A stretch of 64,000 nt of DNA, from contig JAFCMP010000162.1 of the NCBI GenBank assembly GCA_017506865.1, positions 1-64,000 on the forward strand, read 5' to 3'. Positions 8,101-54,000 of this stretch are shown here, piece by piece (the stretch's first letter is position 1; each line of letters starts with the position of its first letter). Made by a program: the position numbers and the translations under genes. The notes beneath the pieces are model-generated. The model had not been told where the DNA came from. It did not search any database and worked only from the letters and a program-made list of their open reading frames with translations. The DNA comes from Tribonema minus. Taxonomy: Eukaryota; Sar; Xanthophyceae; Tribonematales; Tribonemataceae.

Positions 8101-11100
8101 AGCATTTTTCAGACTTGTCAATGACTCTGATTCCCACTGCGATTCCGGCGCAGGACGAACTCGGCGTCGCGCGAGCGCTCCACCTTTGCAGCGATGCTCA
8201 GCCTGAAGGGCAGCAACAGGGGCTCCGACAAGTGGAGCGTGGGCAGCAGCCTGAGGCCGCCGCGGCGCCTGCGCGGCGGCGGCAGGTGCAACCCGCTCAA
8301 CTTCCGGCCGCGCGTGCAGCTGTACGTCATCTTTGCGCTGGTGAGTGACGCACCTCAACTTGAAGATATGCAGCAGCCGTCTCAAACTTCTGGGCGCGCA
8401 TGCAGCTGTAGGTGAACTTCGCGCGCTGGTGAGTGACGCACCGCAACCCGAAGATATGCAGCAGCCGTCTCAAACTTACGGGCGCGCATGCAGCTGTAGG
8501 TGGTCTTCGCGCACTGGTGATTGACGCAATTCAACTACACGATGTGCAGCCGTTTTAATTTCCGGCCCCGCGTGCAGCTGTAGGTGGTCTCTGCGCTGGT
8601 AAGTGACGCACTGTGGCACTTCAGCTTGAAGTTGAAAACCCCCTTGTCTTTCGGCCGCGCGTGCAGCCGCACGTCATTTTCGTGCTGGTGAGTTACGCAC
8701 TTTAACTTGAGGATGTGCGACTCGCTAAACTTTAGGCCACGCGTGCAGCTGTAGGTGATCTTCGCGCTGGGTGAGTGGTGTACTTCAACTTGAGGATGTG
8801 CGACCTGCTGAACTGTCGGCCACGCGTGCAGCTGTACGCTGCTCGTGCCCCGAAGGGGGTTTGCCGCACACGGCGTGCTGGATGAATGCGAGTATCGCCT
8901 TCCAAACGGCATGACGTCATTGTGCTGATGCAGGAGCGGGACATTGCGCATACCATCAGTTCATGTCATGATGACTATATGATTATTCTGATGAGTACCA
9001 TCACACGTTGCCGTGCGTCTGACTCCCCATTGTGTTGGTAGAATTCTGCAGCACTTCAAGTTACACTTGGCATCAAGGGCGCATCCGCTTTCAGCTTCTT
9101 GCACGTGGTCTCCGCGATTATGAGGAAAAAAAGGATCACGAGTTATAGGAGTGCCATAGCACGTCGCAGCAGCAGCTGTGTCACGAGTATTTCCAGGGCA
9201 GAGCAGATTTTTTTTGCAGGCAGGTCCAAGTGCACCATTTACTTTGCTCCCAGGGACTTGAGCAAACTACTCAATATGTAGTCTACAACATATGTGTGTG
9301 AGAATGCCGCAATGTAGGAGGGGTGAGCTTAATGCGGCACGGACAGTGCAGTGTAGGTCATGCTCTTTAAGAGACCCGAGCGCATAGGTGCCCAGTGGTT
9401 GTGAGTAGAAGTTCACCATATGTGTGTGGTGACGCCAGAGGCGGGGAAGCTTGATTCGCCGATGCCCCACATTACTGCACCTGTGCGAGCATCATGCGCA
9501 TGACAATATGGTATGTACGGCTAAGAGTCAATTCAAGTAGAACGGTCAAACCCAGTGTTGAGCAAGTTGGCGTTTGCTCGTCTTAAAGTCGGGGATTGCC
9601 AGTGGGGTCAGGGCTGGCACTTAGGGTTAGGGTTCAGGTCAGGCTTAGTTGGAGTCTGATGCAACGCGCACGCTGCAGCCGCAAGTAATTTATGTGGTTA
9701 CATGTGACATAGCGGTGCTGTGCAGTCGCTCTTCAGAGTGGTGCTGGCGTTGATTACAGTTTCATTAGCATGCTCGTGGTGGCTGGAAACCTCACTGCGC
9801 TCAGCGCAACTTGAAGTTCTCTTTAATGATGACGCCCAGCTGCCGCGCCCCCGCTGCCACAACGCAGGCAAGAGCTGCTGATACACAGATGCAGGCGTAG
9901 CAGTCAGTAACAAATACATGAACTTCAACTTCAACTGCTTCATCTATGTCCTACATGCACACCTGAGCGTAAACTGTTCTCCACTGTATACACTTGTAAC
10001 GTCAGCTTGCGCCGTGTTGCCGTCGCAGATAGAGCTGGTGATATTCGGCGTGTTTACGGGCTGCATGACGTCGCTGGCAAAGACGTGGGCCACGACGTTC
10101 GACGGCATGGGCCAGGACAGCATTGGCTCGGTGAGTCAACTTCAATTTCAAACTTCAAAGTATCTCAACTTCACGGCCGTTGACGGCGTGGGCCAGGACA
10201 GCATCGGCTCGGTGATTCAACTTCAATTTCAAACTTCAAAGTATCTCAACTTCAGGGCCGTTGACGGCGTGGGCCAGGACAGCATCGGCTCGGTGCGTCA
10301 GTTTCAACTTCACAGTTTTGCAGTTCTGTTCACACAATTAGCTTCAGCAACCTATAACGACAAATCTTTTTATGGGTTGCTGAAGCTATGTAGTTGTTTT
10401 GTACTGTTCACAGTGTGCTTCCCGTAGGAATCAAACTTGTGTGTTCAAGGCGTTATTAGCCCCACAAGTGATGTCCAATGCCTCAAGGGCTCGGCTCGGT
10501 GAGTCAACTTTACTTTCATACTTCAAAGGACTTTAACCTACAACCTCACTCAGGCCGTGACGTTGGACGGCACGAGCCGGGCCAGCAACGGCTCGGTGAG
10601 TCAACTTCACTAACATACTTCAACTTTTTGTTTGCCCCCAGGTGTTGTCGCTGCAACGCGACTCGGTGCAGTGTCTGTACTGTGTCGTCAGGTACAGATC
10701 GTCGTTCACAACGCGTCTCAGTACAGTGTTTGTAGAGTGTCACGCAGGTACTGTGATGCAGGGGGGGGTCTCGAGATGCCATTTGGCGGCGGCGGCGTTT
10801 GAGTGGTTGTCGTTGAGCCACTTTCAGACTGTCACACGACATGTAGATTCCGTACCGCAAGCTTCAAGTTAGATGCCATCCATCTGGGCTTTTTCGCGCC
10901 CTGAGCGAGAATCAATATAAAGTACTGTGATGCATCGTATTGACAACACCTGCGCGCGCATTTGCAGCCTCCCTCAAGCCACGACGTTCGACAGCACTAC
11001 TTCACAGTATCTCAACTTGACAGCCTCGCTTAGGCCGTGCTGCTCAATGACAAAGGTCGGGACAGCACCGGCGCAGTAAATCACCTTCACTTTCACACTT

Positions 11101-51000: not shown

Positions 51001-54000
51001 CCATGTGCCGTGGATCACAAGGGCGCCCGCGCGCGGCGCGCTCATTCATGAAGCGCATTCATTCATGAACTGCGTGTGTTGCCGTGAATTGCGCAGGCGC
51101 CAGCGCACGGTTCGCCTCTCATGCGCGGCGAATACGCGCACCGCGGCGGCGCTGATGCATCGATGCTCAGCGCAAGTCCGTCCACGCCCGGTGGCGCTAT
51201 GCGGTGAGCAGACCACGCTTGCGTAACCATGTAGCAATTGAATTAAAAGATATGGTATGTTTTGGACTATACACGAAAGAGTTGAAGACTCCGTAGATAC
51301 TTTACTAGGAAAAAAGCCTAAGTCGCAGACATGAACTATTACGAATGATGGACACATCAACAATTGGAACTTGGAATCCTACTTTTGAATTGTTGAGGTT
51401 TGGGAGCCTCCTTAGGGTTAGAGTTAGGGGTTAGATTTAGTATTCGTCCACCTGAATTCAGCATGCCTCATCGCGCACTCGGTGGGCTACTACTGAATAC
51501 ATGCACATACATGTAGTCCCAGCCAGTACATGGTTATGAGTGGTGCTGATTGCTAAGCTTCGAGGAATAAAGCGAACCACATGCATATTTATGCGTGCTC
51601 TCTTTAGAACCATGCTTCCGACCACCTCTTCACCAGTGCTCGAACCATGAATGTCCGTAGCGTCCTGTTGAGTCGTGACAAAGTCAATCGCGCATATACC
51701 TATGATGCCAGTTTGCAAATCACTTCATCTGTGCTCACATTTGACGTGGCCTGCTATGGCGCTGCACACGCTGCAGCAGGCGTGGGGCAAGCACGTCTAC
51801 CTACCTACCTATGAACGGTTTGATGCCAGCGATTAATCCAATCAGTGCTCAAACCAACTCTGATCTGTTGCACCGGGCCCCGTCGTGTTGACGCGCACAG
51901 CACCTACATAGAGTCTCCCAGAGGAGCAAACACGTACAAGTATACCTAGCCATGTGGATGGCAGGCCAGATTGCGAATGATCCGTGGCCTGTTGCGTACC
52001 TATGTACCCATGCGTGTTTGCAACATAACAACATATATACATATGCTCATACCAACCCTGTTGCATCGGTCCAATCGTGTTGATATGCACTGCAGCACGT
52101 CTGTACAGCCATGAAGGCTCCCGGTGGAGCAAGAACGTTTACCTACTTGCCCATGTGCGGTTGGATGCCAGATTGCAACTGATCCGTGGCCTGATGCGAT
52201 CCATGCGCATTTTCCATTTTTTCGGCAAATGACCTCATCACTGCTCACACCAATCAAATCAACTGCATGTTGCATCGGTCCTGTCGTGTTGACACTGCAG
52301 CATGTCTCAGCAGTCGTGGAGCGGCCACGCCGAGTGATCTATGGCCTGCTGCATACCTACCAACGCATGTGATTTTTGTTTGCAAATGACCTCTTTAATG
52401 GTCACACCAACCCTGTTGCGTTGGTCACGCTGTGTTGATGCGTGCTGCAGCATGTCTCAGCAGGCATGGAGCGGCCACGACGAGGAGGATGACGTCAACG
52501 TGACGCCCACCATGCAGTCGCCCTGTAAGGTACGATGTGCGGCACACACGACTATCAGCTGCGCAAGCCTGTTGTGCAAGATGACATGGATATGCTGACT
52601 GGTCAGCGTGAAGAGCATGACCGTCAGCTGCGCAAGCGTTTGTGACATGATAACATCTTAGGGTTAGGGTTAGGGCTAACCCTAACCCTAAAGTTGATAA
52701 GTGATCATCCCGCCATGCAGTCACCCTGTAAGGTACGGTACGCGCAGGCGCCACTGTGCATGCATGACTGTCAGCTGCGCAAGCCTGTTGTGACAAAATG
52801 ACAAGGCATGCGCTGGACTGACGGATCACGGCTCACATACAGCACAATGTCAGAATACGACCACCATGAATTGCCATGAACGATGAGGAGCACACTGGCT
52901 TTTTAGGAGCGTTACATTGTTCTGAGATGATGACATAGATGAGCTATATCTGAAATCAATGCCGGTGAGGACAGTGTCATTGTGTGTTCGCCTGTGACTG
53001 CATCTTCTGCAACTGCAACTGGGCGGTGCGCACTGGCCGCTGTGCAATCACAACGGCGACAGTGACGCGCGTATCAGATTTTCCCCTGTCGGAGCAGTTG
53101 ATGCACACACACGTGCTCACAGTCAGCTACGCAATCAATTCTTGGATGCAAGTTCAGGTACCTGTGAGTGAAGGCAGCCGTGTTGTGATGTAAGGAGGGA
53201 AACAGTTGTATGGAATAGAATGCCAAGTTTCGCTTTGCGTGGAGACTTAATGAAGCAGCAGCGTAGAGCTATCACTTGTGGATTGGCACAGGCCAACAGC
53301 ACGAGACAGGCAGCGGCAGCAGAGCCCTGCCAGGTAGGCAACGCAGAGAGCACGTTTTTGTCACTATATGCACCTACCAAACTTCAAGATGGGCATGCTC
53401 ACGCCGCGAGTGCGCAATTAAGATCACGGTGCGTCCGCGCAACAAAAGATGCGGTTGTGCCAGCTTCCAGTCGCGGCTGAGTACGCTCTACAAAGACTGC
53501 CACCGAAGAGCGCAAGCACCTGCTGCCATGCGTGCCAGCAACGCACTTCAACTCGTTCTGCATGTGGCGGCCATTTGATGCATGTCATCGCGATGGGCCT
53601 CTAAGACTCCACTAGCGCTGCAACCGACAATGATTGTGTGCTTGTTGTGACGTATTACGCTCACTACCAGATGCTCGATCCTTGCCATACGGGGCGCCGC
53701 ATGTACCCCTCGCGATAGTGCCGCCCTACGGCAAGCGAAATGCCCCGTGCTCCTCTCTCTCAACCAAAGTGGTCACCAATGTACTCACGCGGATTCTGCG
53801 CTCGCTGTTCTGCGCAGGTCGAACTGATGGCTGCGCTGCAGCAACGCCCCCTTGACGCCGCACCAACTTCAGCATATCCAACTTCAACTGCACCACCCGC
53901 CGCGGTACGTGCATCGCCCCCACCGCCGCCGCCAGCGATGTCGTCGTCAGCGGCCTCAACTTCAAGATCAACTTCACCATCAGCAGCCGCAACTTCAACG

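Follow-up and report, generated by a model that had tools for sequence, protein, structure and literature searches.

Why should an intron be filled with partial copies of its own splice junctions? The question is raised by a 64-kb stretch (here the window: bases 1-64000 of the 137,589-bp contig JAFCMP010000162.1, C162) of the 158 Mb assembly of Tribonema minus, a xanthophyte of the PX clade. An earlier note on this DNA had described, at both ends of almost every intron of two large genes, copies of the exon edge with its splice site, and had taken them for locally produced decoys which lengthen the introns through a genome-wide process unlike any described system. Our results suggest that these arrays are, very probably, minisatellites of the type known as mirages, produced by recurrent local tandem duplications (units of ~130 bp) that straddle the exon-intron junctions and are tolerated. 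To our knowledge, intron lengthening without transposons is poorly documented.

Junction copies in the introns of two genes

From a reading of positions 4900-54500 we joined exons on the basis of their splice sites and phase, and so rebuilt by hand two genes with 33 exons and 31 introns in total (Table 1). Their exons average 168 bp and 70% G+C, and their introns 1259 bp and 55% G+C. The chain of first donors and last acceptors keeps the protein in phase, the sole break in either gene being at intron 8 of gene 2, and the frame of gene 1 is kept when every copy is ignored. Note that the last exon of gene 1 must begin at 30471, 1 base later than in the scans.

Each junction was represented by a 34-nt probe (20 exon and 14 intron bases), compared without gaps with its own intron, and 50 dinucleotide shuffles per junction served as the null. 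At the strict threshold (at least 24/34), copies were found at 18/31 donors and 14/31 acceptors (32/62 junctions). The shuffles never reached 24 at 61 of the 62 junctions, and had 24 as their maximum at the remaining one. At the looser threshold (at least 23/34), 35/62 intron ends (19 donors and 16 acceptors) carried 1-7 copies each, giving 86 copies: 53 donor copies in 19 introns and 33 acceptor copies in 16. As a control, the same probes were applied at 23 or more matches to the 1300 bp beyond the exon, on the wrong side, where 0/31 donors and 2/31 acceptors matched (2/62 in all), both matches being G+C-rich and scoring 24/34. This confirmed that the junction copies inside the introns of both genes are real and that they belong to their own junction, as expected from the proposal that each array arose locally. 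Introners are near-identical intron sequences dispersed over many genes; a whole-genome search with one array, the only one searched, matched its own place only. The claim about almost every intron held for at least one end (25/31 introns) but not for both ends (10/31), with neither end echoed in 6/31, and the density proved to be atypical of the genome.

Each unit repeats the edge of the exon together with the splice site, and most copies also take in adjoining intron sequence. The copies are situated on the intron side of the junction, and their matched exon part spans 6-123 nt at donors and 20-84 nt at acceptors. On the intron side the match exceeds 10 nt in 76/86 copies and stops within 10 nt in 10/86. 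Most copies are ~5-25% divergent from the exon, and the splice dinucleotide is retained in 47/53 donor copies (GT) and 27/33 acceptor copies (AG). When the copies are stacked, exon edge and splice site recur, with spacers that resemble each other in some arrays but have diverged strongly in others. For the 77/86 spacings up to 230 bp, the median is 133 bp (10-90% range 90-181). Copy spacing peaks at 120-140 bp (28/86), and it is frame-free (spacings modulo 3 = 32/29/25). Measured from each junction to its most distant copy, the arrays add up to 34% of the intron sequence, in support of the idea that the arrays lengthen the introns. Finally, a complete exon was present in 0/35 arrays, compared to ~6.4 expected for uniform breakpoints, an expectation that owes part of its size to a few single copies at wide spacing.

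Junction copies in other genes

The earlier note had proposed a scan over other genes of this genome, and this established that the two genes of the window are not unique, although the rate elsewhere is much lower. In the AGC kinase gene L016 (contig C190), close to S6K, acceptor copies lie 153 and 336 bp before one exon stretch, which is followed at 172, 422 and 435 bp by donor copies. The deposited T. minus kinase P0002 has no insertion at either junction and is colinear with the proteins of Ectocarpus and Chrysoparadoxa and with a transcriptome-derived protein. L051 (C179), a region chosen blind to its content, encodes an ISG20-like exonuclease and has 6 donor copies after one exon, 1 acceptor copy before the next and 4 donor copies after that; the chain without copies aligns over 106 residues to ISG20L2 (7YW5). 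Since the conserved proteins skip the copies in both genes, the originals are probably the real sites, on firmer evidence than in gene 1, and the copied sites of L016 and L051 are probably unused.

To estimate the frequency, we scored 52 kinase intron ends, anchored by homology and picked regardless of repeats. Copies were present at 8/52: 4/18 ends of nine two-sided introns, 4/17 one-sided ends (weak boundaries being retained in this count), and 0/17 further ends, scored at the best candidate site, with one second-choice site reaching 23. Five of 14 kinase exon pairs (L034, L035, L036, L037 and L038) had been excluded because of unclear boundaries, L035 having an acceptor match of 25. With predicted exons, 15 random 10-kb regions gave copies at 6/67 donors and 3/62 acceptors on the intron side (9/129), and 0 and 0 on the other side, while 30 kinase loci gave 4/79 donors and 5/72 acceptors on the intron side, and 1 and 1 on the other. 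These two rates are rough and probably low, because the predictions include false exons. The exon caller used was trained on 29 pieces and recovered, in 22 predictions of the window, 17 true donors and 15 true acceptors; it replaced a quick Viterbi gene finder that predicted 129 exons for 33.

At least one echoed junction was seen in 6/15 random regions (L045, L049, L050, L051, L056 and L057), and one exon of L056 matches DNA polymerase kappa. Profile hits for the CCT chaperonin (4) and kinesin (2) also had half-exon duplicates (six copies, spread over five loci), each of them on the side where it was expected. By eye, with the best candidates only scored, we saw no duplicate on the opposite side, nor any in the rows for kinases or myosins. 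Thus, the phenomenon is widespread but patchy, with the window at the dense end. A genome-wide process is in keeping with the copies in unrelated genes on other contigs, but a rule covering nearly all introns is not supported by the kinase and random-region counts.

Four near-identical loci (L008, L010, L020 and L031; 95-99.8%) lie on four contigs, so the assembly apparently contains haplotigs or recent segmental duplicates. Three pairs from these four kinase loci differed by small indels and one end gap only, and the sole local repeat seen in these pairs was unconnected to a junction.

The arrays have the anatomy of mirages

Published reports overturn the statement that no described system behaves in this way, since the mirages of amphioxus (PMC3087553, PMC3902484) and variants of human CBS (PMC2630376) were already known. 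Mirages were described in Adh3 and in the globins BflGb6 and BflGb9 as minisatellite-like tandem duplications over exon-intron boundaries, both 5' and 3' (PMC3087553, PMC3902484), and PGBD5 and TnC are further examples (PMC3902484). The units measure 150-160 bp in the globins. Many mirage copies, though not all, keep AG/GT, and regular splicing is reported to be undisturbed (PMC3087553, PMC3902484). The Tribonema arrays match this anatomy: tandem units span the exon-intron boundary, they occur at 5' and 3' boundaries, and many but not all carry the splice dinucleotide. They differ in distribution, amphioxus being a chordate with gene-by-gene reports, whereas Tribonema is an ochrophyte with copies at 35/62 intron ends in two genes as well as in conserved genes that are unrelated. 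The arrays take mirages beyond the chordates, with a high density in two genes.

Other known systems share part of these features. The human CBS variant c.1444_1467+7(16_21) is a 31-bp variable-number tandem repeat which, by its name, repeats 16-21 times a unit of the last 24 bases of the exon and the first 7 of the intron (PMC2630376); the exon-edge-plus-intron unit is shared, but this repeat concerns one junction of one gene and has short, uniform units. CBS 844_845ins68, a 68-bp duplication in which the distal site is strongly favoured and the messenger RNA (mRNA) normal (PMC2630376), has the same anatomy but is a single duplication at one junction. Intron gain of the Rogers type, by intragenic tandem duplication with copied splice signals (as cited in PMC3087553), creates a new intron from exon sequence, whereas in Tribonema an existing intron is enlarged; it involves duplicated exon sequence only, which does not describe the 76/86 copies extending more than 10 nt into the intron. 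Stwintronisation in Lipomyces involves a duplicated donor adjoining the original and is ascribed to break repair (PMC7138796); these duplications are of 4-7 nt, are used in stepwise splicing and leave the exon edge uncopied, unlike those of Tribonema. A literature search found no such arrays for algae, which does not prove their absence from print.

Growth of the arrays

Within the arrays, the copy nearer to the exon was more exon-like in 61 pairs and less in 26 (pairs within an array being non-independent), and the nearest copy beat the farthest in 14 of the 19 informative arrays, with the reverse in 5. We propose the following scenario. A duplication spanning the junction would leave the exon with its own two sites mutually nearest; therefore the exon would still be defined, and the extra half-exon would be spliced out unnoticed. 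This would explain why such duplications are tolerated: the exons continue to be defined by their original sites. A copy that had both sites, on the other hand, would be included in the mRNA, and selection would eliminate it. In repeated rounds, new copies would arise beside the exon and the rest would drift, so that the array grows and the intron lengthens. The source of the duplications is the least certain step: it might be fill-in and end-joining at staggered breaks, or slippage, perhaps commoner at transcribed junctions. Filling-in and joining of 3' overhangs at staggered breaks is described to yield small tandem duplications (PMC8355091); that this mechanism acts at splice junctions is a tentative proposal of ours.

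Are junctions preferred sites?

In the window, 32/71 repeat components straddle a junction, compared to 6.5 +- 2.2 (maximum 17) when components were placed at random and allowed to overlap an exon by up to 60 bp (5000 trials; low-complexity windows were excluded from the repeat counts). In line with this, the fraction of positions with a local copy was 0.2-0.5 near junctions, versus 0-0.05 for three stretches outside genes and 0.19 for another such stretch, in which a retroelement lies. Circular shifting of the repeat masks gave a weaker excess (donors 18 vs 9.5, p 0.0005; acceptors 14 vs 9.5, p 0.049). In a column-permuted motif test the window scored 35% vs 14%, a value reached in 0/60 permutations, and in the kinase loci 6/60 permutations reached the observed value.

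Several results weigh against our reading of the arrays. With predicted exons, the 15 random regions gave 16 junction components vs 11.9 expected (p 0.08; with stricter cut-offs, 12 vs 7.8, p 0.07, and 9 vs 6.2, p 0.14), and the 30 kinase loci gave 9 vs 9.8. This test is weak, since in the window it yields 29 vs 19.9 where the true exons yield 32 vs 6.5; still, with no significant excess outside the window, the claim of junction targeting comes down to one window. In addition, the hypothetical T. minus protein P0001 (1247 aa), the single record recovered when the rebuilt product of gene 1 was searched against proteins, has 316 residues in 18 blocks outside our exons, 13/18 of which end on a copied splice site, and the probable non-use of the copied sites is deduced solely from proteins. 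Finally, in some arrays the exon part outlasts the spacer even from copy to copy (ungapped identity 0.84-0.87 at the donor vs 0.45-0.65 beyond), a retention which simple tandem decay does not predict and which could reflect repeated budding from the exon, probe bias or selection.

Some of these results bear on an explanation to which we give just short of an even chance: local duplication is undirected, duplications within an exon are eliminated, those within an intron, decaying on both sides, cease to be visible sooner, and the junction bias is only apparent. The predicted junctions elsewhere, with their lack of significant excess, fit this view, as do the arrays found in intron interiors (e.g. 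22352-22489 and 25218-25408). Moreover, a conserved exon edge should halve the apparent divergence of junction arrays, keeping them recognisable for longer. However, the excess of straddling components in the window exceeds such a two-fold detection advantage, and the scarcity of local copies in the non-genic stretches, the retroelement included, compared to the junctions is not what undirected duplication leads one to expect. Junctions may be mutational targets, with a strong excess in the window and none clear in a weak test elsewhere.

A stronger version of the tandem-duplication reading seems to us possible but doubtful. Here a junction-directed duplication, linked to transcription or splicing, would add half-exon copies; in affected genes the exon edge would be the main growth point of the intron and the exon the preserved master, from which older copies would be pushed inward to decay into a datable record. 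Note that each array keeps its source exon under selection, and therefore the order and age of the duplications can be read.

The copies drift as non-coding DNA

A selected role for the copies, as RNA decoys or splicing regulators, is improbable. The high retention of GT and AG would fit it, and identity drops sharply past the donor hexamer; but the probe includes the splice site, which favours copies retaining it. The rate of copy-unique change was equal in splice site and copied exon, both at donors (hexamer 0.054, exon part 0.055) and at acceptors (0.058 and 0.064), so there is no extra constraint on the copied splice sites. Rates in the spacers were somewhat higher (0.072 and 0.092), a contrast that is biased because the probe covers exon and splice site. 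Furthermore, 44/52 kinase intron ends do without copies. As natural decoys with real splice sites, the arrays make exon definition testable.

Could the copies be real exons, spliced alternatively or constitutively as in the deposited model of gene 1? This appears still less probable. Besides the extra blocks of P0001, the pooled comparison of copies with exons is what suggests it: the differences were 0.153 at the third codon position vs 0.102 and 0.078 at the other two, and 43% of codon changes were synonymous vs 28% expected, with 2 stops. Polarisation accounted for this signal. Exon-unique changes fell at positions 1/2/3 as 3/2/12 (12/17 at the third), while copy-unique changes were even (46/43/46 over 2421 copy-sites, in arrays with at least 2 usable copies). 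Thus, the pooled excess stems from the synonymous changes of the real exon itself, and the copies, drifting evenly over codon positions, are non-coding. Neither whole exons with both splice sites (0/35 arrays) nor coding constraint was found, as duplicated or mutually exclusive exons would have; the spacings are not multiples of three, and the copies of L016 and L051 are passed over in the conserved proteins. The view of the copies as decoys and not exon duplications was therefore upheld.

We read the extra blocks of P0001 as probable over-prediction in the deposited gene model, and further models of the T. minus proteome may be affected likewise. As the gene-1 model appears to take decayed copies as exons, protein predictions for genes of this kind may include false repeats. 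P0001 itself contains decayed junction copies as exons, for example near-identical LVEWTGDPTD... pieces in succession. Exons 1, 17 and 18 of gene 1, the least certain of our chain, are missing from the deposited protein.

That minisatellites came first and then supplied the exon edges is highly improbable, as nothing beyond the array structure suggests it and, in L016, in L051 and in the nested hits to CCT and kinesin, the exon edges belong to the coding sequence of conserved domains. An assembly artefact has the least chance of all: tandem repeats can be misassembled and this assembly has duplicate loci, but most copies differ from the exon as described above, and further genes, located on different contigs, have arrays as well.

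Features of the window and other observations

Table 1. Rebuilt genes and junction arrays of the window
Feature	Coordinates	Strand	Remarks
Gene 1	4985-30980	+	19 exons; deposited as JKP88DRAFT_289857; phase-consistent exon chain
Gene 2	35814-54390	+	14 exons; phase-consistent save intron 8
Donor array, gene 1 intron 2	8281-8852	+	
Donor array, gene 1 intron 3	10082-11170	+	
Acceptor array, gene 1 intron 3	11191-11781	+	
Donor array, gene 1 intron 5	13467-13850	+	among youngest, 94% matches
Donor array, gene 1 intron 6	14401-14834	+	
Acceptor array, gene 1 intron 6	15322-15682	+	
Acceptor array, gene 1 intron 7	15973-16348	+	
Donor array, gene 1 intron 8	16484-17152	+	
Acceptor array, gene 1 intron 9	18545-19192	+	
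Donor array, gene 1 intron 10	19215-20120	+	
Acceptor array, gene 1 intron 10	20347-20722	+	
Donor array, gene 1 intron 11	20812-21242	+	23/34 threshold only
Donor array, gene 1 intron 12	21901-22091	+	
Donor array, gene 1 intron 13	23277-23523	+	
Acceptor array, gene 1 intron 13	23596-24144	+	
Donor array, gene 1 intron 14	24325-24572	+	
Acceptor array, gene 1 intron 14	26036-26857	+	
Donor array, gene 1 intron 15	26903-28056	+	7 copies
Acceptor array, gene 1 intron 15	28255-28743	+	
Donor array, gene 1 intron 16	28759-29512	+	5 copies
Acceptor array, gene 2 intron 1	37974-38908	+	5 copies
Donor array, gene 2 intron 2	38946-39126	+	
Acceptor array, gene 2 intron 2	39485-39848	+	
Donor array, gene 2 intron 3	39849-40681	+	
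Acceptor array, gene 2 intron 3	41088-41772	+	includes 97% pair
Donor array, gene 2 intron 4	41745-42397	+	
Acceptor copy, gene 2 intron 6	44667-44880	+	one copy, 27/34
Donor array, gene 2 intron 7	45040-46116	+	
Acceptor copy, gene 2 intron 8	46583-46958	+	one copy, 23/34; intron with phase break
Donor array, gene 2 intron 9	47009-47440	+	
Acceptor array, gene 2 intron 9	48208-48521	+	
Donor array, gene 2 intron 11	49631-49991	+	
Acceptor array, gene 2 intron 11	50545-51115	+	23/34 threshold only
Acceptor array, gene 2 intron 12	52037-52492	+	
Donor array, gene 2 intron 13	52495-52750	+	

A Pfam scan of 5000-14982 in the three plus-strand frames matched no family. In intron 12 of gene 1, 5.8 copies of a 50-bp unit (22914-23201) end at the acceptor and include no exon sequence. 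A possible third gene has its last exon at ~34086-34205, and a 160-bp tandem pair (33784-34089) adjoins its acceptor, for which the 34-nt probe found no junction copy (best 17).

The 64-kb window also contains telomere-like interstitial tracts (46 TTAGGG and 43 CCCTAA), several of them within introns, and, at 56992-63189, an inverted pair of a reverse-transcriptase-bearing element centred at ~60,010, of which a copy in L049 is 97.5% identical over 3.2 kb. Finally, two random regions (L046:2559-8288 and L048:4271-10000) have in common a 5.7-kb stretch, 99.97% identical and hence a very recent copy, with an open reading frame that we take to be reverse-transcriptase-like.

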